DNA from: Apus apus
Taxonomy: Eukaryota > Chordata > Aves > Apodiformes > Apodidae
Length of the DNA stretch: 64,000 nucleotides
Reading direction: 5' to 3'
Assembly: GCF_020740795.1 (NCBI RefSeq)
Contig: NC_067285.1
Coordinates: forward strand, 37,333,318-37,397,317
Shown: positions 7,645 to 53,457 of the stretch, piece by piece
How positions within the stretch are numbered: the stretch's first letter is position 1
Layout of the letters: each line of letters begins with the position of its first letter
The notes under the pieces: generated by a model
What the model saw: only the letters and a program-made list of their open reading frames with translations
Told to the model about the DNA's origin: nothing
Databases searched by the model: none
Program-made: the position numbers and the translations under genes

Positions 7645-9037
7645 TCAAGCCCAAGTAACCTGCACCAAGCACTAAGGTAGATTTTCAAAGGCGTAACATA
7701 TATTTGGGATGAAAGCATCAAAAAAAGCAAGTAGGTTTTGTGCTTTCTTCAGTCTTCTGCATTTCCCCCAGCTTTTTTTTAGGGGTGAGAGGATTTATAA
7801 TTATTAGTTTGAATGATGTTGCACATTTTGGGAATTCCAGCTGTGTTAAAAGCCAGACTTTCCAATCCACAGCACAGGACTCTTGCAGGACATCAGCCTT
7901 TGGAGGGCTGCCTGCCACTATCCATGTGCTGGTGTCCTAGGTGCAAAAAGCCTCCAGTGACACCAAAATCTTTTGGAAAACTCTGACAGTATATGCAAGC
8001 TCAGCTCCTGACCCTCAGGTAAAAAATACCCTCACAAAACCCAGTGTTTTGAGCTCATTTCTACTTCAGAGCGTTGTGTTTTGTTTTTTTCTTTTCACAT
8101 CCAGTTGTTTCTGATGAGTTGCACTCGAAATAGCATTCAGGTGCTCTGCTTTATTTCAGCTAAGAACAGTTTGGATCTACCTTGCTGGGAAGCCTGAGAA
8201 ACCCTCCCTGCACAACACCTAACTCTGGGAATCACACCGTAAGAGAAGGATCTCATGTCACACTCAACAAAACCAGGGTTCACTGCCACATGCAAGCCCA
8301 AATTTTGGTGGTGCTATACAGATTTTTTTTTTTTTCTTTTTCACTCCAAACAGCCCTTTCCTGACATGTTAGGGAACAAGGGCTTGGATTATTTTTGTCT
8401 GAGCATTTTTTACAGGATGTCCTGTTGTCCCAGATAAAACCCCTTTAATTCAGCAACCATTCCTTACAGCCAGACTGAAGTTGCTATTAAATCTAAGTCC
8501 CAGGCCACCCGTATTTAGCACAGCAATTAACCAACATTGAACAACACAGAGCAGCGGCAGCAACCAGAAAATGGGAAGAGTTTTTAAGCTGCCATTACCA
8601 CTAGTGTACGGGATTTTCCTCCTCAAGTTTAGTTCAAGAGAACTCAATAATTAATTAAAAGCAGCACCTCCTCGAGCTTGACAAGCATGGAAACAATAAC
8701 ATACATGGGGGACAGGTACACAAAGGTGCCATTAACCAAGCCACTGCTTTATAAGGATACTGTTAACTCTGAGTAGTAGTCAAATGACATTCATTAATAC
8801 CTCCAAGTGCTGAAAAACATCTGCACATTTTGACTGATTAAACCTAGAAGCATGGCAAGTTTTCACTGAAGGTTAATTAAACGTGGGGAGCCATGCTGTC
8901 TCTAGATGGATATGAAAAATGACAAGAGAAAGACGGTAAATCATTGGAGAATCACAAACCCAACCAGGTCAACACCAGAGCTTCCACTGACTGGAATTGT
9001 AAGGGCATCACATCCCTATTTTATACTGGTTCACAAA

Positions 9038-10067
9038 CAGGCATGGAGGCCAGTGAGGGAACAAGGCATGGAGGCCGGAGAGGGAACAGGCGTGGAGGCC
9101 GGAGAGGGAACAGGCGTGGAGGCCAGCGAGGGAACAAGGCATGGAGGCCGGAGAGGGAACAGGCGTGGAGGCCAGCGAGGGAACAAAGCATGGAGGCCGG
9201 AGAGGGAACAGGCATGGAGGCCAGCGAGGGAACAAGGCATGGAGGCCGGAGAGGGAACAGGCGTGGAGGCCAGCGAGGGAACAAGGCATGGAGGCCGGAG
9301 AGGGAACAGGCGTGGAGGCCGGAGAGGGAACAAGGCAGGGAGGCCAGCGAGGGAACAGGCGTGGAGGCCGGAGAGGGAACAGGCGTGGAGGCCGGAGAGG
9401 GAACAGGCGTGGAGGCCGGAGAGGGAACAGGCGTGGAGGCCGGAGAGGGAACAGGCGTGGAGGCCGGAGAGGGAACAGGCGTGGAGGCCGGAGAGGGAAC
9501 AGGCGTGGAGGCCGGAGAGGGAACAGGCGTGGAGGCCAGCGAGGGAACAAGGCAGGGAGGCCAGCGAGGGAACAAGGCAGGGAGGCCAGCGAGGGAACAA
9601 GGCAGGGAGGCCAGCGAGGGAACAAGGCAGGGAGGCCAGCGAGGGAACAGGTGTGGAGGCCAGCGAGGGAACAAGGCGTGGAGGCCAGCGAGGGAACAGG
9701 CGTGGTGGCCGGAGAGGGAAGAGGCGTGGAGGCAGGGAAGAGGCGTGGAGGCCGGAGAGGGAAGAGGCGTGGAGGCCGGAGAGGGAAGAGGCGTGGAGGC
9801 CGGAGAGGGAAGAGGCGTGGAGGCCGGAGAGGGAAGAGGCGTGGAGGCCAGCGAGGGAACAAGGCGTGGAGGCCAGCGAGGGAACAGGCGTGGAGGCCAG
9901 CGAGGGAAGAGGCAGGGAGGCCAGCGAGGGAACAGGCGTGGAGGCCGGAGAGGGAACAGGCGTGGAGGCCAGCGAGGGAACAGGCAGGGAGGCCAGCGAG
10001 GGAACAAGGCATGGAGGCCGGAGAGGGAACAGGCGTGGAGGCCAGCGAGGGAACAGGCGTGGAGGCC
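9038..10067 (+). repeat. Minisatellite, about 43 copies of a 24/25-bp unit
   Basis: Units are 'ggaggccggagagggaacaggcgt' (24 bp) or a 25-bp form with 'cagcgag' and 'caaggcat/caaggcag'. Variants are grouped: seven consecutive 24-bp units near 9360-9530, a run of 'caaggcagg' units at about 9541-9640, and a 'gaagaggcgt' block at about 9721-9845. A shortened unit occurs at about 9730. The unit lacks stops, so all forward and most reverse frames stay open; this is not evidence for a protein. Confidence 0.97.
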
Positions 10068-10429
10068 AACATTTCCATCCAGGCAGAGCCGAAGGGAGCC
10101 TGAACCTGTTGTCACAGCACCACGCAGCCACCGGCCAACGCGGTACCAGGACGCTCACGCCGCTTCCAGCCCTGCGGACACAGGCTGCCTGCATCAGCAA
10201 ACTCCACCAGCGCCGTGTCAACACGGCAGAGCTCCCACTCTTTTTTTTCCACAGCCCTCTTGTCTCCTCTCTCGCCCTCCGTCGCCTCGCACGCTCACAG
10301 GGCCCGAAGGCGCCGAGGGCCTTCTTTTAACGCAGGGTTTTCACCCAAGACGGAATCCATGAGAAGCCCCAATGGAAACAGGGGCCTCGGAGCACGGTTA
10401 AAGAGACGGCCACACGCACGAGACACCCC

Positions 10430-11120
10430 CAAAAAAATTCCGTGTCACCCAGCCTTGTCAGCCACAAGGGAGCGGGGAGCCCCCCTTGCCTGCCAGGGCA
10501 GCAACAGCCCCGGGCACGCAGCGGGGCTGAGGGTCCCCGAGCCCCCCCCCGGGGGCTGCGGCCCCGACCCGGGGGCTGCCCGGGGTGCGGGGCTGAGGGG
10601 CCGGCAGCTCCCCCCCCGCCCCGGGGTGCGGGAGGGCCCCGCCAACCCTCGGTCCCGGAGCCCCCCCCCCCCCCAGGGCCCGCAGCACGGACGGGACCGC
10701 AGCCCCGCGCGGAGGGGCCGGGAGGAGCGAACCGCTCCAAGGGGGGGTGGGGGGGGCTGAGCGGGCCCGGGCACCCGCAGGGCGTCTCGCGGGGGCTTTG
10801 CGGGGAGGGGGCCCGGGGCTCCGAAGCAGCAGCAGCAGCCCGGCCCCCCGCTCCCACCCGCCGCCGCGGACACCCCCCCCGCTCCCGCTCCCGCTCCCGC
10901 TCCCGGCTGCTCACCGTGCGGCGGGGCGGTGCGGGGCGGTGCGGGGCGGGCGGTCCCGGGGCGGCCCCGCTCCCGCTCCCGGTCCCGGGCGGCGGCGGCG
11001 GCGGCGGGAGGGGCGGGGCGGCCGCACCGCGCGTCACGTGACCGTCGCGTCAGCCCGCGCCGCCATCTTGAGGCGGGAGGAGCGGGAGGGAAGCGGCAGC
11101 TCCCGGGCGGGCTGTGCCCT
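10430..11120 (-). promoter_or_regulatory. CpG island / promoter of an unidentified gene, probably minus strand
   Basis: About 700 bp of very CpG-dense sequence. It holds the 10-bp palindrome GTCACGTGAC (11033-11042, a USF/TFE-type E-box), a CGCCATCTTG YY1-like site (11061-11070), GC boxes and (GCTCCC)n runs. Read on the minus strand there is a good donor, CGCACG|GTGAGC, with intron base 1 at 10914. This suggests a non-coding first exon from about 11050 down to 10915. No protein-coding exon of a known neighbour (GLUD1, SHLD2) could be recognised. Long frames across it on both strands are composition artefacts. Confidence 0.5.
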
Positions 11121-11269
11121 GGGGATGGACGTGTTCCCCAGGGGGGATGGCGGGGCTTGGCTTCCCCCCCAGCCGCTCGTTGAAGGCTCCCAGCCCTGAA
11201 AATCGCGGTTGTTTTTTCCTTAAAAGAAGTCACTTCGCAGCTTTCTGAGCGCGCGTCGCCAGAGAAGGC

Positions 11270-11795
11270 AGAGAATCCCAGGCGGGTTTGGGCTGGAAGG
11301 GACCTTCAAGACCTTCCAGATCCAACCCCCTGCCATGGGCAGGGACACCTCCCACCAGCCCAGGCTGCTCCAAGCCCCATCCAACCTGCCCTTCAACACT
11401 GCCAGGGATGGGGCAGCCACAGCTTCCCTGGGCAGCCTGGGCCAGGGTCTCCCCACCCTCACAGCAAAGAATTTCCTCCTCATGTTCAACCTCCATCTCC
11501 CTCTCCCAGTTTTCATCCATCCCTCTCATCCCATCCCTCCCTGCCCTTGTCCCAAGCCCCTCCCCAGCTTTCCTGGAGCCCCTTCAGGCACTGGAAGGTG
11601 CTCTAAGGTCTCCCTGGAGCCTTCTCTTCTCCAGGCTGAACACCCCAACTCTCCCAGCCTGTCTCCAGAGCAGAGCTGCTCCAGCCCTCTGAGCATCTCC
11701 ACGACCTCCCCTGGACTCTCTCCAACAGATCCGTGTCCTTCCTGTGTTGGGGACCCCAGCCCTGCAGGGGGGTCTCCCCAGAGCAGAGGGGATTG
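11270..11795 (-). mobile_element. CR1 LINE 3' fragment
   Basis: The minus strand reads the usual CR1 3' region, with the tail end at about 11270. It abuts the CpG island and ends in the ORF2 remnant near 11795. Confidence 0.9.
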
Positions 11796-18820: not shown

Positions 18821-20020
18821 TGTGTCCAGCTGAAAAAATGGGGTGGTGCCTCCAGCTCATCTTCAAGTCACCTCTTGGAGACCCAACACAAGCTGTCTGG
18901 AGTGCAACTGCAGGGCTGTCCACCTCTGCTGGGCCAGAGGATGGCACCTCCACGGTGTCTGAGGAGCAGTGAAACGGTCCCTAGAGGCTCCCAGTCCAGC
19001 TCTCGGGGGGTTTTCTGCTGAGCCCAGAGCTGTTGCAGTCACGTTGTGACAGCTCCTCTTCCTGCTCCATCCCAGGATCTGACCCTGGAGGCCTTTTTTG
19101 TTCCCAGCCTTTATTTCTCCTTCAGCGCAGGTGATTTGGGGAATTGCCATTTCCAAACGGTTTGGGGATTTCTCTCCCAAGCTGGATTTTCTCAGGTCTC
19201 CCTGTAGGGGCAGCACTTGCCTTGCAGGCCAGTCTGGAGGAAGAAAAAGATAGTTTAAAAACGAATTCCTGCTCCTGGGCAGTGCAGCTCTGAGCACAGG
19301 GAGTGACAGCAGCATGAGCCTGGGCCAAGGGGGGTTAGCAATCAGAGTTTCTTCTCATGTGCAACTCTCTGCCCAGAGGGGCTGAGTGATTTACGTCCTG
19401 TGTCACCATCCGAGCTCCGTTCCTCAAACTGGAGTAAGGTCTACAAATCGAGGCCACAATAATAAGAAGAAAAATGTTATGATTGTCTTGATCAAGTGTG
19501 GGCAAGAGTCTTGCTCTGGACTGGAGATCTCCAGAGCTCCCTTCCCAGCACTGCTGCTGTCACGCCACGGGCCAGGGGAATTAAGGACACCATTCAAACA
19601 GAATAAATCCCTGCCTGGGTCCCTCCATCCCTTTCAGGGAAACACCAGTTCCCCTGATAAGACAGACTGAGGTCCTCTTACCTACTGGTTAAACACATAC
19701 AGCAGAGGAATCTGTGGGACACCAGGTTCTCCACATGAGGATGAGCATCAAGCATCATCCCAGCTGCAGTACTAATACTTTTACTGGAACAACTCCAAGG
19801 TACAATAACCTGATGCTGCCCTTAGGCAAGGGAGAAGTGAGGAAGGGAGGACAGAAGCTGATGCTGAGCGTCCCGTTTTGATGGCAAATGTTGGTAACTT
19901 GAAGATGTACAACTGAAATCCAGGTGGAGCTGGCATATATTCCTTGAAGAGAACTGGAAAATTGTATAAACCATAAAAAAAAGTCAGAATCATGCAACCA
20001 CCTGCCTACTGCCAAGTGTG

Positions 20021-20272
20021 GGAGAAAGCTTGATCCCTATGGAGGGAGCCTGATCCCTGGGGAGAGAGCCTGATCCCTGGGGAGAGAGCCTGATCCCTGG
20101 GGAGGGAGCCTGATCCCTATGGAGAGAGCCTGATCCCTATGGAGGGAGCCTGATCCCTGTGGAGGGAGCCTGATCCCTGGGGAGAGAGCCTGATCCCTGG
20201 GGAGGGAGCCTGATCCCTATGGAGAGAGCCTGATCCCTGGGGAGAGAGCCTGATCCCTATGGAGAGAGCCTG
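20021..20272 (+). repeat. Minisatellite, about 12.6 copies of a 20-bp unit
   Basis: Thirteen consecutive units of 'ggag(a/g)gagcctgatccct(at/gg/gt)' keep an exact 20-bp period. Only the first and last units are clearly degraded. Confidence 0.97.
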
Positions 20273-21864: not shown

Positions 21865-22306
21865 ATCTGACAGGGATCCACTGGAGAGAGTCCAAGGGAG
21901 GCTACGAGGATGATGAAGGGACTGGAACACCTGCCTGAGGAGGAAAGGCTGAGAGACCTGGGGCTGTTTAGTCTGGAGAGGAGAAGACTGAGGGGGGATC
22001 TAATGAATGTCTACAAACACATGAGGGCATCAAGAAGGCAGGGACAGCTCTTGTCACTTGTGCCCTGGGACAGGACGAAGGGAAATGGATTCAAACTGGA
22101 GCCCAGGAAGTTCCACCTCAACATGAGGAAGAACTTCTTTCCTGTGAGGGTGACAGAGCCCTGGGACAGGCTGCCCAGAGAGGTGGTGGAGGCTCCTTCT
22201 CTGGAGACCTTCAAGACCTGTCTGGATGCCTTTCTGAGTGACCTGCCCTGGTTTTGGTCCTGCTCTGGCAGGGGAGTTGGACTCAATGATCTCCAGAGGT
22301 TCCTTC
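21865..22306 (+). mobile_element. CR1 LINE 3' fragment, left part of a copy split by an LTR
   Basis: ORF2 remnant and 3' UTR up to 'gatctccagaggttccttc', where the LTR at 22307 is inserted. The tail resumes at 22934. Confidence 0.92.
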
Positions 22307-22929
22307 TGTTAGAAATGAAATGTAGTGTTGATTTTGCATTCGAGTGTTAGAAACATAGTGTCGGGTTTGGTTCACACACACACACATATATACTCTAGTG
22401 TTAGGAATATATAGTTTGTTTGAGATAAGTGAGATATCTGCACATCCCAATGACACCTGGGGTGGTTACTGCCCAAGAAACTGAGGGACTTAATTGGGCT
22501 CCATCTGGGGGATCCAAACACGGAGCAGGATTTATGGCCAAGATCAGACCAAACAAAGCCACTTTTATCTTGCTCCTCGGGGCAGGATGACACCAGTAGG
22601 TATAGATCATTTTGGTGATTGGGAAGACAGTCAAGGGGGCAAGAAAGGTCAGAGTTATACCTTACAAGGTAAAAAGTAACCTGCTAGAATGGAATGTATA
22701 AACGGGGGCAGGAAACTTCTAGGATAATTAGAAGCATCAGATAGGCTGTAAACCCTGGAGTACCCAGCCAGTGGGGAAACAGGGGAGGGAACTTTGCATC
22801 GGAACAGGGAATATAAAGTTATTCACCTTACTTGTTTAGGTCACCCATTCTTGCAAGAGTGTAAATAACCTGTGCTCCTCTGAAGGATCTGTGTGGGGCT
22901 GTTCCTTGGCACGACACACGTTTCTCACA
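22307..22929 (+). mobile_element. Solo LTR of an endogenous retrovirus (4-bp TSD), inserted in a CR1 tail
   Basis: The element starts TGTTAGAAATG and ends TTTCTCACA, flanked by CTTC at 22303-22306 and 22930-22933. Removing it restores an uninterrupted CR1 3' end (ggttc-cttc-caaccc). TATAAA lies at 22812-22817, and a (CA)n(TA)n tract is near 22372-22392. No internal retroviral genes are present, so this is a recombined single LTR. A 4-bp duplication is typical of class I (gammaretrovirus-like) elements; that class call is inferred. Confidence 0.92.
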
Positions 22930-23610: not shown

Positions 23611-23814
23611 ACGGCACATCCTGGATCCAGCATTTGCAGAAGCATCATCCCTGTTTATCCTCCACAAAGCTACGTTGCTCTGGGCCACCTCCTGCAGGCT
23701 GGGCAGTGCTGCTTGTGTCCCTGCAGAATATCCAGGGATCAAACACTTCATTCCAGAACATCCAAGATCTGGGCCAGGATCACGCATGATCCTCTTTCAG
23801 AGGATCACAGTGTC

Positions 23815-24300
23815 ACTGGGTGCTGGACCTCTTGGGGTCCTTGCTGGAGCGTGTCCAGAGAAGAGCCACCAAGCTGGTGAAGGGGCTGGAGAGCAAGTCC
23901 TGTGAGGAGAGGCTGAGAGAGCTGGGATTGTTCAGTTTGAAGAAGAGGAGGCTGAGGGGAGACCTCATTACTCTCTACAACTCCCTGAAAGGAGGTTGTA
24001 GGGAGGTGGGAGTTGGGCTCTTCTCCCAAGTGAATAATGACAGGACAGGAGGAAATGGCCTGAAGCTGCTCCAGGGGAGGTTTAGACTGGATATTAGGAA
24101 GAATTTCTTTACCCAAAGAGTGGTTGGACACTGGAAGGGGCTGCCCAGGGAGGTGGTAGAGTCACCATCCCTGGAGGGGTTTCCAAGCCATGTAGATGTG
24201 GTGCTGAGGGACATGGGGCAGTGGTGGGCTTGGCAGGGCTGGGTTAATGGTTGGACTTTATGATCTCAAAGGTCTTCTCCAAGCAAAACCATCCCATGAT
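23815..24300 (+). mobile_element. CR1 LINE 3' fragment
   Basis: ORF2 C-terminal remnant ([20 protein letters not shown] in frame) then 3' UTR and tail 'aaaaccatcccatgattg'. Closely similar to the copy at 33590-34168. Confidence 0.9.
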
Positions 24301-34742: not shown

Positions 34743-36507
34743 GAACTGTTTGAGCCTTAGCACATCATTGCATTAACACTTTGGTTTAGTTACTGATGAG
34801 CAGGGAGACAGGTGACATTCATACTTTCCAACAGATTATCACTAGTTGACTAAATACATCATGAAAATCTATTTAGTCAAGGAAAATTCTCAACTGTATA
34901 TAAGCAACAGCCAGACGGTGTGGGCAGGGAGTAAAGTGCCTGAGCTTTCTGTGCCTAAACATAGTCTCCCCAAGACCTTCTATGGACCAAAAGCTAAGCC
35001 CTTTTACTGATACCTGAGATGTCCTTGACAACCTCAAGCCTTGCTTTAGCTGCAAATAATTCAGTTCCCTTAGCTACAAGCTGATAACTGTTCAGTACTG
35101 AGGCATTTTTGCAAATGCTTAGAGCACTGGGGGATGTTTTGCTTGCACATTTGCCCGAGCTGTTTTATAACCCAACGTGTCACAGGCTCACTCAGGCTTT
35201 TCCACCGGATGCCTCTTTGTATTCTTTGCTTTTCTAAGCCCTTCTAAGCTTTTCTGGAGAGGCCATTACAATGCCCTCATGCCGTGCTGCCAGTGATGCC
35301 AGCAGGGTGTGAGGATTATAGCTGGTAAGGGTGCCTCTCTGTTCACTGTTCTGGCTGGATCCGCCCCAGGCTGCAAATGTCACATTCCCTCTGGTTTGAC
35401 TTTTCCACAGCCATGTATTTCCACTTAGAACTCACTCCTGCTGGGAACACATAAGCCATGTTAAAAAAGCATAATGCCCCACAGTGCCCTTGACCCCCAA
35501 AGCACCATCCTTGGCAGCAATGATCTACACCCCTCCTTCTCAGCCCAGTGCTTTGGGTGGAATTCAGCAGCTTTTGGGCAAAAAGCTGAAAAACACCCTT
35601 AAAAAAGCCCACTCACAGTTCTTCTGACACACCATATGGGCCAGTGTGGAGAAGGACGATGAAGCTCATGGTGGATGCCAAGCCCTGCTGAAGCATGAGC
35701 AAAGGGGGGAGTAAGGGTCGATGCTTTAGCATTGCAAGGGGCCATAATTGGCCAAAAATGGGCATTTTTTCCCTCCCATGGGTGCAGCCCCGAGGGTAGG
35801 TAGCACTGCCTGAGGGGGCCTGCTGCCTCACCCAGCATTGCCCCTTGTTGGACAGATGCCCTCCTGAGGCAGGCAGAAGGAGAGAGCCGGCACCTTTAGT
35901 GTTCTGAGGAGCCATAAATGGGTGAAAAAAGGTGTTGTTTTTTTTCCCCATATGGGTGAGTCCTGAGAGTAGACAGTCCAAGCTGAGCTGAACCAGCCAG
36001 GCCTGAGGAGAGCTGCCTCCTCCCCTGCCTCACCTGTGTGGCAGGTGCCCTTCCAAGGCAGGCACAAGGAAGGTGTCGCAGGCTTTAATGCTAAAAGGAT
36101 CCATAAATGCGTGAAAAAGGCTTTTTTTGCCCCACATAGGTGGTGAAGTCCAGAGGGGAACGGTCCAAGCTGAGGGGAGCCAGCACCATTCTCCCCGTAC
36201 CTCACCCAGGACTGTCCCCTTATCTGGCAGGTGCTCTCCCAGGGCAGGCACAAGGAGGGAATCATGGACTTTAGTGTCATGAGGAGCCATAAATGGGTGA
36301 AAAAAGTGAGGTTTTTTTCCCCATGCAGGTGCAGCCCTGAGGGGAGGTAGCCCGGCCTGAGAGGAGCTGCCACCTCCCCTGCGGCTGCCCTCCCAAGGCA
36401 GGCAGGAGGAGGGAATCATGGGCTTTAGTGGTGAGAGGATCCATAAATGGGTGAAAAAGGCATTTTTTTCCCCTACATGGGTGAAGTCCTGAGGGGACAC
36501 AGAGAGC

Positions 36508-37045
36508 CTAAGCTGAGGGGGGACACAGACAGCCCATGCTGAGGGGACACAGACAGCCCATGCTGAGGACACAGACAGCCCATGCTGAGGGGACACAGAC
36601 AGCCCATGCTGAGGACACAGACAGCCCATGCTGAGGACACAGACAGCCCATGCTGAGGGGACACAGCCCAAGCTGAGGGGACACAGCCCAAGCTGAGGGG
36701 ACACAGACAGCCCAAGCTGAGGGGACACAGACAGCCCATGCTGAGGGGACACAGCCCAAGCTGAGGGGACACAGACAGCCCATGCTGAGGGGACACAGCC
36801 CAAGCTGAGGGGGGACACAGCCCAAGCTGAGGGGACACAGACAGCCCAAGCTGAGGGGGGACAGCCCAAGCTGAGGGGGGACAGACAGCCCAAGCTGAGG
36901 GGGGACAGACAGCCCAAGCTGAGGGGACACAGCCCAAGCTGAGGGGACACAGACAGCCCAAGCTGAGGGGGGACACAGACAGCCCAAGCTGAGGGGGGAC
37001 ACAGACAGCCCAAGCTGAGGGGGGACACAGACAGCCCAAGCTGAG
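36508..37045 (+). repeat. Minisatellite, ~24 units of 20-26 bp, nested in a promoter-like monomer
   Basis: About 24 copies of 'ggggacacagacagccca(a/t)gctga' occur with 20-, 22- and 26-bp length variants (loss of 'gaca' or gain of 'gg'). A single related segment, '(a/g)acagtccaagctga' or 'aacggtccaagctgag', is present in the neighbouring monomers, so the array probably expanded from it. The open minus-strand frames across it (repeated SLGCLCP/SAWAV peptides) are a by-product of the unit having few stops. Confidence 0.93.
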
Positions 37046-37105
37046 AGGAGCCGAAGCCGCCACCACCTCCCCGGGCCGCCCCTCGCCTGGCGGGCTGCCT
37101 CCCGG

Positions 37106-37273
37106 GGCAGGCACAAGGAAGGAATCGCGGGCCGCAGGATAACGAGGAGCCCCCCCCGGGTGGGAAAGGCGGGATTTCTGCCCACGATGCCGCCCCCGGG
37201 GGGAGGCAGCGCGGCCCGTCCCGCCCGGGCCGGCCCCTTATCTAGCGGCCCCGCCCTTCCCGCGGCAGCCGCC
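37106..37273 (+). promoter_or_regulatory. MINPP1: MINPP1 core promoter / 5' leader inside a CpG island
   Basis: CpG-dense sequence directly upstream of the ATG. It contains a GC-box-like CCCCGCCC at 37249-37256, a GATA-type TTATCT at 37238-37243, and no clear TATA box. The CpG-rich tract continues through exon 1 to about 37870. The segment is also the last monomer of the upstream tandem array, sharing the 'ggcaggcacaagg' anchor and the 'ccccttatct' block with older copies. The exact start of transcription cannot be seen. Confidence 0.7.
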
Positions 37274-37820
37274 ATGGCGCCGCGCGGGGCCCGCGCTGCT
37301 TTCCCGGCCGCTGCCGCTGCCCTGGTCCTGCTGCTGCTGCCGCCGGCGGGCGCGGGGCTGAGCGGCTACTTCGGCACCAAGTCCCGCTACGAGGAGGTGA
37401 ACCCGCACCTGGCGCGGGACCCGCTGTCGCTGGGCCCCGGCGCGGCCGCCCCGCCGCCCGCCGCCTGCGCCCCGCTGCAGCTCCGCGCCCTGCTCCGCCA
37501 CGGCACCCGCTACCCCACGGCCGGGCAGGTCCGCCGCCTGGCCCGCCTGCACGCCCGCCTGCCCCGCCCGGCCGCCTGCCCCGCCGCCGCCGCCCTGGCC
37601 GCCTGGCCCATGTGGTACGAGGAGAGCCTCGACGGGCGGCTGGCGCCGCAGGGCCGGCGCGACATGGAGCACCTGGCCCGCCGCCTGGCCGCCCGCTTCC
37701 CCGCGCTCTTCGCCGCCCGCCGCCCGCTGGCGCTGGCCAGCAGCTCCAAGCACCGCTGCCTGCAGAGCGGCGAGGCCTTCCGGCGCGGGCTCGGGCCGGC
37801 CCTCGGCCTCGGCGGCGACG
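37274..37820 (+). CDS. MINPP1: MINPP1 exon 1 (coding part)
   Basis: This exon encodes residues 1-182 and the first base of codon 183. It carries the signal peptide, the conserved [14 protein letters not shown] segment just after it, and the catalytic RHGTRYPT motif at 75-82. It is extremely GC- and CpG-rich, giving long Ala/Pro/Arg runs such as the stretch around residues 56-66. It ends in gacg|gtaagt, a consensus donor. Overlapping long frames on both strands here are shadows caused by the base composition. Confidence 0.95.
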
Positions 37821-40800
37821 GTAAGTCCCGGCCGGCCCCGGCCTGCGGGTGCCCGGCGCTCCCGGGGACTCCTGGCGCGCCCTGAGGGGCCCTGGCTCCC
37901 TTCCTGAGGGGCCTCCGTGGGCCTCCCTGCCCTGTGGGGTTCTGATCCTCCCTGAGGGATCCCTGCTCCCTTCCCGAGGGACCTCCGTGGGCCTCCCTTC
38001 CCTGTGGGGCCTCTGGAACCCCTTGGGGGATCCCTGCTCCCTTCCTGAGGGACCTTCCTTCCCTGTGGGGCTTCTGGAATTCCCTGAGGGATCCCTGCTC
38101 CCTTCCCGAGGGACCTCCATGGGCCTCCCTTCCCTGTGGGAGTTCTGATCCTCCCTGAGGGATCCCTGCTCTCTTCCGGGGGGGCTGAGGGATCCCCCGT
38201 TCCTTCCCTGTGGGATCTCTGGTACTCCCTTAGGGATTCCTTCTCCTTTCCTGAGGGGACCCCTCGGCCCTCTCTGAGGGGCTGAGGTAGTGCTGCCCCA
38301 GGCTGAGGGAAGCTGTGGGGCCAGTCCCGTGCCCCCACATCTGGGGGGGCTCAGCACCCCACATCCCCCTCTGAAGGGACACCACTGTGGTGAGGGGACT
38401 GTCCCGGGGAGCGTGGCTGGGTGGCTGGGCCCTGGTCCCCCTGGGGATGGTGGTGCTTCCCTGGGCTGCGTCCCTGAGGCCCACGTTTGCTTTCAGAGGT
38501 GGAGGTGGAAGTTAATGACTCCTTGATGCGGTTTTTCGATCACTGCGCCAAGTTTGTGGCCTTGGTGGAAGAGAATGAGGCAGCAATGTGCCAGGTGAAT
38601 GCCTTCAAAGAGGGGCCGGAGATGAGGAAGGTCTTGGAGAAGGTGGCGAGTGCCTTGTGTTTGCCCGTGGAGGAGCTGAACGCAGGTAATGGGTGCCTTT
38701 TACAGGTGGCTTCAGCTCCAAGTCTGGGTGAGAACTACCTCTGAGACACCACCTGCTTATGCAGAGTAGGTACTGCAAGATACCCTGTAAATCAGAGACA
38801 CAGTCACTAATTAAATGCTTAAGGCTGAAAATGTGTATTGGTGTTCCAGTAATGAATGCTTGTTACTCAGTAGTCAGAAGGAAAAGATGTTTGAAAATAC
38901 CTTTTCAACAGGTGAAATCAACATTTCCTTTGCTTGAAGGGATGCGAGTGTGTTGTTCTTTTAATTCTGCTTTGTCAAGCAGATGTAGCTTTTGTAATGC
39001 CTGTTAGAATTCAAACCCACAAATAACCTCAGGAGAAGGTGGACCTGGATGGCCACGCTGTAACTTCTTCCCCTGCCCAGAGTAGCAGTGCCAGGTTTCC
39101 TTGTGTGGTCAAGTGTTGGGGGAAGCAACCACCCCAAACAGGCATTGCTGTCATTTCCAGCACGTCCCTAAAGCCACAGTCCTGAAGTTGCAGCTCACCT
39201 CTGGTCAAACTTGGCAACTAATGTGGAGCTTGGGTAGTGGTAGTCAAAGACTGGTCTGTGTTGAACAGACACTCCTTCCTTGTGGTGATGAGGACACACA
39301 TTTGATGTGAAGTTTTCCCCTTCTAGCAATTTAATGTGAAAAACTTGCAGTCAGAAACGTAGATTCTGAGTGATCAATCTGTTGAAAGCTTCATTTTGGC
39401 CTTTGGACTGCTGGTTGTTTATTGGAATACATTGCCAAATTTTAGTTGCCTTTCAGAGGCAAGCTGTGAGAAAGTTGCTACTTGTGTAGCAGTGGTTTTA
39501 TCTTTTGCTTTTTTGTCGGATTTATTGCAGATCTTGTTCAAGTGGCTTTTCTTACCTGCTCCTATGAGTTGGCTATAAAAAATGTGACCTCTCCATGGTG
39601 TTCACTTTTCACTGAAGAAGATGCCCAGGTAGGTGTAGGTGCTAAAGGGGAGAGAGATTTGAGAACCCTTCAAAAGATGCCTCCGTGTTCAGATAGAATT
39701 CCTTACACAATCCAAAGTTGTAAGTTATGTGCCCCTTATTCTTCAACCTAGTGAAGCATTTCTTTGGTCTCCGAAGAGCTCTGGATTGATCAAAGCAGCA
39801 AGACTGCTTTGTTCAGACTTAAATATTGGAGCAATTTTGATTTCTCATGGTTAAAATGCCTTTTTCTTTCCTATTGTGCTTAACTCGCATAGTGCTTTTA
39901 CTTCTGTAATAGCTGAAATGCTCTGAACAGCTTTGTTTTGCCTATAATCATATGATAAAATGCCTTGATTCTGAAGGACAGCAAATGAGGCCTTCTAGGT
40001 CCTCCAAGATGTTATGTTTTTTCTTGTGTGTCCAAGAATTCTTGATTTCCTGCAGTGTGTGGTAGCATCATGGCTCCAGGTTGTGGGTTTTTTGTTTTCC
40101 TTCTGTGCCATGATAAAAACTTGGGAATTCTGACTAGGTACTGGAATACCTGAATGACCTGAAGCAATACTGGAAGAGAGGATATGGCTATGACATCAAT
40201 AGTCGCTCCAGCTGCATTTTATTCCAGGATATCTTCCAGCATTTGGACAAAGCAGTGGAAGAGAGCAAAAGGTAAATAAAAAGGCTTTTGTGCTTTGGCT
40301 ATGAGCTCCCTGTGGTTAATCCTGGGTTGGGTTAAGTGTGAATAGATGTTAAGTACTTTGCTTCTAACCGTAGCAATATTAGGGGAGTTTGAGCTAGGAG
40401 AATTTTAGTGGAGAGGTTTACATTTTTAAGAGCAATATTACTTCAAATAGTGATTATTTTTTGCTTCCATTGATGGTCTTGTGCCCATCTAATGTATTTC
40501 CATCTTTTAGCCTACTGATGCACACAGCCCTCCAAGGCATAGTCAGCTGCTGTGTCAGATAGTGTTCCCTTCCTGTGCAGTTTGAGAAGAGGCCATTGAG
40601 TTAAAACAATGAGCTTTCTGTTTAAAATGTCTGTGTTAAAAGTTACTTGTGAAAATAGAAGGTGGTGGCTCGAAAGCATCCTTGTGACATGCTCTGTGAT
40701 CTGCTTACTTCAATATGGAAGTGTTTCTGCATGTGTTTGATTTGAGTCTCTTGCATTATTAAAGCTTTCTGTTCAGATAAAAGGTTCTGGAATGTGATTA

Positions 40801-52800: not shown

Positions 52801-53457
52801 CACAAGTTACATTTTATTTGAGAGGCAATGCCTTAAATTGGGACAAAATTTAGGAAGCTTAGATGCTTTAAAAAAAGCCTGTAATGTACTGAAATTCCCA
52901 AACAAGTTTTTATTGGCTGTTGGGGTAAAACAAGATCAAAGTCTATTCCTGTAGCCCTTGCTGCTGGCAGCTGGGCAGTGTTGGTGTGTTTGTTTTAAAG
53001 CACAGGCTCTTGCTTATCCCTTGCACTTTTTTCTCTTTTTTCTTTTTTTTTTTTTAGTTCCAAACCCATTTCTTCACCTTTGATTGTCCAAGTTGGACAT
53101 GCAGAGACACTTCAGCCACTGCTTGCCCTTATGGGTTTCTTCAAAGATGAGGAGCCTCTCAAGGCAAACAATTATGTCAGACAAATGCACCGCAAGTTCC
53201 GCAGCGGCCGTATCGTGCCTTATGCAGCCAACCTGGTGTTTGTGCTTTACCACTGTGACCAAGTGAAGACCTCTGATGAAGAGTATCAGGTACAGATGCT
53301 GCTGAATGAAAAATTGTTGTCGTTCCATCACTCAAATGAAACCATCTCTACTTACGCCAACCTCAAGAACTATTACAAGGACATCCTGGAAAACTGTCAC
53401 TTCAAAGAAGAGTGTGAATTACCAAAAGTTAATACTACTGCTGTTGATGAACTTTGA
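37274..53457 (+). CDS. MINPP1: MINPP1, multiple inositol-polyphosphate phosphatase 1 (five coding exons)
   Basis: The gene encodes an ER-lumenal histidine-acid phosphatase that removes phosphates from InsP6/InsP5 and, by family knowledge, from 2,3-bisphosphoglycerate; the chick orthologue was described as HiPER1 in cartilage. The coding sequence joins 37274-37820, 38497-38685, 39531-39628, 40138-40271 and 53058-53457 (547+189+98+134+400 = 1368 nt, 455 aa plus stop). All four introns are GT-AG and the phases 1, 1, 0 and 2 match. Seen in the protein: an alanine/leucine-rich signal peptide (about residues 1-28), RHGTRYPT at 75-82 with nucleophile His76, HAE at 337-339 in place of the HD of classical acid phosphatases, N-glycosylation sequons (NDS 189, NVT 263, plus NET and NTT near the C-terminus), and terminal VDEL for ER retrieval. 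The start ATG has a near-ideal gccgccATGg context. Length fits avian orthologues better than the ~487-aa human protein. Identification is confident; the transcript start is inferred. Confidence 0.96.
37880..38275 (+). repeat. Imperfect ~60-76 bp tandem repeat at the start of MINPP1 intron 1
   Basis: Blocks built from 'tccctgctcccttcc(c/t)gaggga', 'cctccgtgggcctccc' and 'ttccctgtgggg-ttctg' recur five to six times, at intervals of about 76, 69, 61 and 71 bp. The array begins about 60 bp after the exon 1 donor. It is GC-rich and likely variable in length. Confidence 0.8.
38497..38685 (+). CDS. MINPP1: MINPP1 exon 2
   Basis: The acceptor is tttcag|ag and the donor gcag|gtaatg. The exon completes codon 183 (Glu) and encodes [20 protein letters not shown] and onward to the VEELNA segment. 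The helical, charged composition and single cysteines match this region of the phosphatase family. Both boundaries keep phase 1, matching exons 1 and 3. Confidence 0.93.
39531..39628 (+). CDS. MINPP1: MINPP1 exon 3
   Basis: A small exon with acceptor attgcag|at and donor ccag|gtaggt. It encodes [18 protein letters not shown], then an NVT glycosylation sequon and [13 protein letters not shown]. This is the conserved 'C-x-Y-E-x-A ... W-C-x-L-F' stretch that lines the inositol phosphatase fold. It enters in phase 1 and leaves in phase 0. Confidence 0.93.
40138..40271 (+). CDS. MINPP1: MINPP1 exon 4
   Basis: The acceptor is gactag|gt and the donor aaag|gtaaat. It encodes [20 protein letters not shown] and onward through [23 protein letters not shown]. 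The YWKRGYGY segment is typical of MINPP1 proteins. It begins in phase 0 and ends after two bases of a Ser codon, completed by exon 5. Confidence 0.93.
41277..41891 (-). mobile_element. Solo LTR, same family as 22307-22929, antisense in MINPP1 intron 4
   Basis: The reverse complement starts TGTTAGACATT and ends in TTTCTCACA, flanked by ACAC at 41273-41276 and 41892-41895. An 85-bp segment around the TATA box (TTTATA at 41389-41394 on the + strand) differs from the other copy at one base, so the two insertions are closely related. No internal genes remain. Confidence 0.92.
43823..43887 (+). mobile_element. CR1 LINE tail fragment in MINPP1 intron 4
   Basis: 'catgggggttgggctagaag' to 'ccaacccagagcattctatg'. 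Confidence 0.88.
43970..44290. other. CpG-enriched patch inside MINPP1 intron 4
   Basis: Several CpGs in an otherwise CpG-poor intron, with a GC box (gggcggggac), a CRE-like 'gtgacgtgag' near 44127, and 'ccgccgctgccgatgg'. I do not recognise the sequence as a known repeat or exon. Confidence 0.45.
44847..45303 (-). other. Two abutting minus-strand frames of unknown origin
   Basis: Frames 45303-45064 (79 aa) and 45071-44847 (74 aa) overlap by 8 bp, and the second is lysine-rich. A third open stretch without a start lies just upstream (about 45434-45305). An AATAAA follows on the minus strand near 44848. The run could be a frameshifted retrocopy or chance. I do not recognise the protein. Confidence 0.25.
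46638..46673. other. Overlapping double palindrome
   Basis: ACCCACCC (46638-46645) pairs with GGGTGGGT (46650-46657) over a 4-nt loop. GGGTCACCC (46654-46662) pairs with GGGTGACCC (46665-46673) over 2 nt, extendable outward to 11 bp. The second also forms an inverted pair of GGGTCA/TGACCC nuclear-receptor-like half-sites. Confidence 0.8.
49180..50010 (+). mobile_element. CR1 LINE 3' fragment in MINPP1 intron 4
   Basis: The largest CR1 remnant in this window. An in-frame ORF2 C-terminal part ([20 protein letters not shown], then [16 protein letters not shown]) is followed by 3' UTR and a 'attctatgattctatgatga' tail. Sense relative to MINPP1. Broken by frameshifts after about codon 120. Confidence 0.93.
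53058..53457 (+). CDS. MINPP1: MINPP1 exon 5 (terminal coding part)
   Basis: The acceptor follows a very strong pyrimidine tract (about 53027-53055). The exon encodes [20 protein letters not shown], containing the catalytic HAE (residues 337-339), then the C-terminal lobe and a final VDEL. The stop is TGA at 53455-53457. The terminal xDEL implies retrieval to the ER by KDEL receptors, as known for this family. Confidence 0.95.

Follow-up and report, generated by a model that had tools for sequence, protein, structure and literature searches.

The question raised by this locus is whether the promoter of MINPP1 in Apus apus is a member of a tandem repeat family and, if so, whether the promoter or the array came first. 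Our analysis covered a window of 64,000 nucleotides (the whole stretch of DNA under study), which sits on a 115.5-Mb contig, and the genome searched comprises 1.10 Gb in 110 contigs. The gene was identified as MINPP1 by matches of exon 1 (E 7.3e-11) and of the last coding exon (E 4.5e-9) to Pfam PF00328 (His_Phos_2), and a query of the joined exons found its best matches in bird MINPP1 proteins (412 proteins with E ≤0.001 among 7998 scored candidates, the best 120 of the 412 being listed). The analysis confirmed that the MINPP1 promoter is the sixth and last unit of a head-to-tail array that starts at about 35682. The units are numbered u0 to u5 in their order along the DNA (Table 1), and all of them lie on the same strand, head to tail and in regular order.

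Table 1. Positions in the window of the array units, the minisatellite, the CpG island and the MINPP1 exons considered here.
Feature	Position	Strand	Remarks
u0	35682..35846	+	most diverged upstream unit; bounds from all-unit profile; two CArG-like boxes (35742, 35752)
u1	35852..36040	+	upstream unit; A-type of probable A-B dimer
u2	36041..36226	+	upstream unit; B-type
u3	36227..36380	+	upstream unit; A-type; top-scoring match to promoter
u4 left part	36381..36512	+	B-type; CpG-poor
24-bp minisatellite	36489..37049	+	24.4 copies (TRF); splits u4; 0 CpG in 36509-37045
u4 right part	37041..37089	+	CpG-rich; within CpG island
u5, MINPP1 promoter unit	37090..37256	+	alignment, shuffles, profile
CpG island	37021..37980	+	spans promoter, exon 1 and start of intron 1
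MINPP1 exon 1, coding sequence as tested	37274..37819	+	RHGTRYP present; splice site GTAAG starts at 37821; Pfam and bird proteins
MINPP1 last coding exon	53080..53457 (start approximate)	+	HAE motif, C-terminal DEL; Pfam and translation

The original prediction had given a spacing of about 155-190 bp. This describes the upstream units, which follow each other at 189, 186 and 154 in an ungapped 93-nt family that joins five units (u0 is absent from it), and it breaks down at the last step, where the spacing is 709 because the 24-bp minisatellite interrupts u4. Two details of wording had to be corrected as well. The 'ccccttatct' block had been placed in every copy and its core is exact at only one upstream place, and the motif in the promoter reads gggtgggaaaggc and not gggtgaaaaaggc.

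Aligned with the upstream DNA, the promoter (37060-37272) reached a score of 105 with an identity of 0.706 across 194 columns; u3 scored 105 against it when taken with its flanks and 86 alone. With a promoter of 78% GC, and with a leader extension at chance level (see below), such likeness might be put down to shared GC-rich composition only, an explanation to which we give virtually no chance and which is refuted by shuffles, GC-rich tiles and a profile match. None of 1000 dinucleotide shuffles of the promoter came to 105 (mean 28.8, maximum 48), so that the promoter is closer to the units than shuffled sequence is, and 1000 shuffled arrays compared with the promoter gave a maximum of 46. Real control tiles drawn from the rest of the window on both strands reached at most 49 (0 of 1236 at 105), and those with GC above 0.65 (n = 61, none at 105) at most 44. 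The match also survived removal of the anchor, with one of 500 shuffles equalling it for 37126-37272 and none of 500 for 37160-37272 and for 37200-37272; the pieces 37060-37105 (24/500) and 37236-37272 (52/500) are weaker on their own. A profile built with nhmmer from u1, u2, u3 and the left part of u4, from which the promoter was excluded, matches the promoter at E 2e-6, u0 at E 1.8e-17 (35682-35833) and also pieces of the minisatellite, and its best match outside the array in the 64 kb has an E of 0.48. The claim that a tandem array has the promoter as its last unit is thus borne out by an alignment score above all shuffles and tiles and by the profile match.

The repeated unit had further been suggested to take in the 5' leader, which ends at the ATG (37274), and this is not supported, with the leader (37246-37285) at chance level in shuffles. 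Its best score against the five unit starts was equalled by 464 of 2000 shuffles, the score obtained without u5 among the unit starts by 216 of 2000, and an anchored leader extension at four unit starts by 58 to 404 of 1000. Coding exon 1 was rejected as array-like as well, the score of 37273-37480 being reached by 397 of 500 shuffles.

The composition of the units bears on their history. The promoter unit has a ratio of observed to expected CpG of 0.81, compared with 0.06-0.25 for the upstream intervals and 0 for the minisatellite, near the end of which the CpG island begins. CpG state tracks position rather than unit, since the right part of u4, which falls in the island, is CpG-rich and the left part CpG-poor. 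At the CpG columns of the promoter, TpG or CpA stands in 39 of 73 upstream cells, vs 58 of 621 in the remaining columns. A mixture of TpG and CpA is seen in 4 of 15 CpG columns vs 3 of 127 others (p 0.0024), and five alignment settings retain the pattern (p 0.0002-0.015), where all p-values assume independent columns though the units are related and are guides only. Across these settings 3-5 of the 13-15 promoter CpG columns are mixed, with TpG and CpA in different upstream units, and 7-8 of the 13-15 have either an upstream CpG or both TpG and CpA. GpC control columns are without the pattern (single-transition cells 8-14 of 85-94, mixed columns 0-1 of 17-19). From promoter to u3 we counted 29 GC-to-AT transitions vs 6 AT-to-GC. 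The excess of TpG and CpA and the mixed columns at promoter CpGs make it probable that the ancestral unit was rich in CpG and that the copies outside the CpG island decayed separately. At two promoter CpG columns each of the five upstream units has TpG, and at a third each has TpT; these columns could equally represent CpG gains in the promoter.

We infer from the CpG-decay pattern that copying ran from the promoter to the array. The head-to-tail amplification originally proposed for promoter and leader together is in this sense upheld for the promoter segment, and it fails for the leader in the shuffle tests. An old local amplification of the promoter segment, with upstream units that would now be mostly inert, is the most likely account, and we consider the following full sequence of events, from amplification through CpG decay, a dimer step and a minisatellite to slippage or unequal exchange at the island, reasonably probable. 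A CpG-rich segment of about 150-190 bp beside MINPP1 would have been duplicated head to tail to give six units, and a two-unit block would probably have been copied in a later step. Units outside the island may have been methylated in the germ line, each then losing CpGs independently through deamination, and only DNA within the present CpG island (37021 onward) would have kept them. A 24-bp piece within the fifth unit would have expanded to about 24 copies and so moved the promoter to about 0.5 kb from the older units. The likely engine would be slippage or unequal exchange at the CpG island of the promoter, such islands being where recombination in birds concentrates.

The opposite order would have an array of other origin come first, the MINPP1 promoter taking over its last unit and, as part of the same joint reading, GC-biased gene conversion adding GC and CpG within the island. 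An unrooted tree, which is compatible with either direction of copying, places the promoter next to u3 at the end of a long branch (0.40-0.42), and the support is weak (42 and 54). This position inside the unit tree would suit an array that came first; the branch of u0 is as long as that of the promoter. A CATAAA- or CATAAT-type stretch occurs in all five upstream units and is absent from the promoter, and some CpG columns show an identical non-CpG in 5/5 upstream units; both speak for this order. Gene conversion that favours GC in birds is described in part of one report (PMC12047795). This order of events nevertheless seems unlikely to us, since at 3-5 of 13-15 promoter CpG columns one upstream unit has TpG where another has CpA, which points to an ancestral CpG, and no source family was found elsewhere among the genome matches listed, within the limited sensitivity of the searches.

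Searches of the genome with u2, with the promoter and with u3-u4 returned only this locus among the matches listed, with a single candidate place for each query, the counts being lower bounds. The promoter query returned only itself and none of its five neighbouring units, u2 returned u3 and u4 only (u0, u1 and the promoter were missed), and u3-u4 returned only u1-u2 at 72% and u2-u3 at 67% (u0 and the promoter were missed). Since the queries failed to return neighbouring units, diverged copies would be missed. At this search sensitivity near-identical copies elsewhere in the genome are unlikely, and a dispersed satellite or transposon family was not found at the limited sensitivity of the three genome queries. 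A scan for an 18-base piece gave no match in viral contigs, in line with expectation for DNA of a bird. Elsewhere in the window there are reading frames, for example 21871-22350 and 23790-24263, which we take to resemble the end of the bird CR1 reverse transcriptase. No description of a MINPP1 array of this kind was found among the papers listed in a literature search that mostly excluded subscription journals.

Within the amplification of the promoter segment, which we prefer, the units point to two probable secondary steps. Two copies of the minisatellite consensus match u1 (35971-36003) and u2 (36153-36183), with 0 of 500 shuffles as good in each case, and u3 (36337-36365), with 1 of 500; there is no match to u0 (171/500) or to u5 (437/500). 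Because the consensus matches u1, u2 and u3, the 24-bp minisatellite most likely grew out of a segment of the unit. A later copying step of a two-unit (A-B) block is probable, given site patterns in the upstream units of 9 ABAB, 4 AABB and 2 ABBA, a grouping of u2 with u4 in the tree at a support of 92-94, and the matches of the u3-u4 query to u1-u2 (72%) and u2-u3 (67%). Against the dimer step, there is only a small excess of ABAB, and the pairwise identity of u3-u4 (0.820) is as high as that of u1-u3 (0.816) and u2-u4 (0.821).

Birds are described as lacking PRDM9 and as recombining more at CpG islands and at features that resemble promoters (PMC5519329), and a zebra finch study describes recombination as raised at the same kinds of site (PMC12047795). 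Since bird recombination is raised at CpG islands, slippage or unequal exchange at the MINPP1 island is plausible. Of the four strong tandem arrays (TRF score > 300) in this one window, three lie in or at CpG islands, one of these islands being largely array itself, and this is consistent with a recombination engine. A second 24-bp array of different sequence (9036-10067, 42.7 copies) largely makes up the CpG island at 9071-10490, and a further island lies at 10601-11320. A 71-bp array (37880-38177) occupies the start of MINPP1 intron 1 at the downstream edge of the promoter's CpG island, and its units and those of the upstream minisatellite both contain CTGAGGG. A 20-bp array of 12.6 copies (20020-20272) lies away from every CpG island called in the window. 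As a base rate we compared 200-bp tiles with 1.5-kb flanks at 10 other CpG islands, a small sample with 3 islands from the window and 7 from two of 20 stretches (the other 18 had none). The best likeness to a flank was 66, at the edge of the other 24-bp array, vs a promoter score of 105 that comes from 213 bp compared with 836 bp. In the base-rate set-up the intron 1 array gave the MINPP1 island a score of 153 on the downstream side.

It had also been suggested that the upstream units serve as extra regulatory copies or decoys. This is unproven, with upstream CpG ratios as low as those given above, an absence of the GC-box motifs tested and a CArG conservation not above chance. The GC-box motifs tested between 35600 and 37900 were absent from u0-u3 and from the left part of u4, the first being found at 37076 in the right part of u4. 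The CArG consensus, the binding site of serum response factor (SRF), is CC(A/T)6GG. Five of the eight perfect matches in the 64 kb lie within the array, two of them in u0 and one each in u1, u3 and u4, and the box of u2 is off by one base. One could imagine that the upstream units were retained as a regulatory array, for example as an SRF-bound CArG cluster or as minor start sites, and the clustering of consensus boxes in four of the five upstream units would agree with this. The CArG window is moreover the most conserved of 94 gap-free windows of 10 columns (2 differences vs a mean of 8.9). Column shuffling, though, equalled this conservation in 1105 of 5000 trials for 10 columns, 541 of 5000 for 14 and 356 of 5000 for 16, so that it is not significant by column permutation and was rejected as proof of function. 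Common descent accounts for a repeated box, the promoter is without one, the upstream CpG ratios stay low, and the only paper listed that mentions both MINPP1 and serum response factor deals with viral hepatitis and liver cancer. A retained regulatory array thus appears improbable. We judge the upstream units to be for the most part inert and the chance that they form a functioning upstream element to be small. A promoter among decayed copies would be unusual for an ordinary gene promoter, and a present function of these copies is most likely absent. A bolder variant, in which the promoter would keep copying itself upstream at a recombination-prone island, the older units losing their CpGs but nearly all retaining a CArG box, and the array would be an SRF-responsive upstream element of MINPP1, comparable to rDNA spacer promoters, strikes us as very doubtful.

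The closest kind described so far is the spacer promoter of rDNA, the copies of which lie in head-to-tail order. In Drosophila and others, core promoter copies in spacer subrepeats precede the gene, as at MINPP1, and the copies, at a Pol I locus that is itself multicopy, reportedly increase transcription (PMC1215480). MINPP1, unlike rDNA, is a protein gene with decayed copies that are known here from sequence alone. The resemblance would accordingly be one of anatomy only, and we claim no membership for the MINPP1 array. Promoter-proximal GC-rich minisatellites are a known kind, and like them the 24-bp array of MINPP1 directly adjoins a CpG island promoter; unlike them, it is nested in a longer repeat, and the promoter is one copy of that repeat. 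Erosion of CpG islands is likewise known from promoters that were duplicated or silenced, and the MINPP1 upstream units share with it the change of CpG to TpG or CpA outside the protected island. Unlike in other cases of such erosion, the working and the eroded copies stand in one array at MINPP1, and the decay can therefore be followed from column to column.

The locus thus sets a live promoter beside probably dead copies of it, so that CpG loss outside the island is laid open at single columns. If such arrays were common beside CpG islands of birds, they would form a sequence footprint of promoter recombination in the absence of PRDM9.
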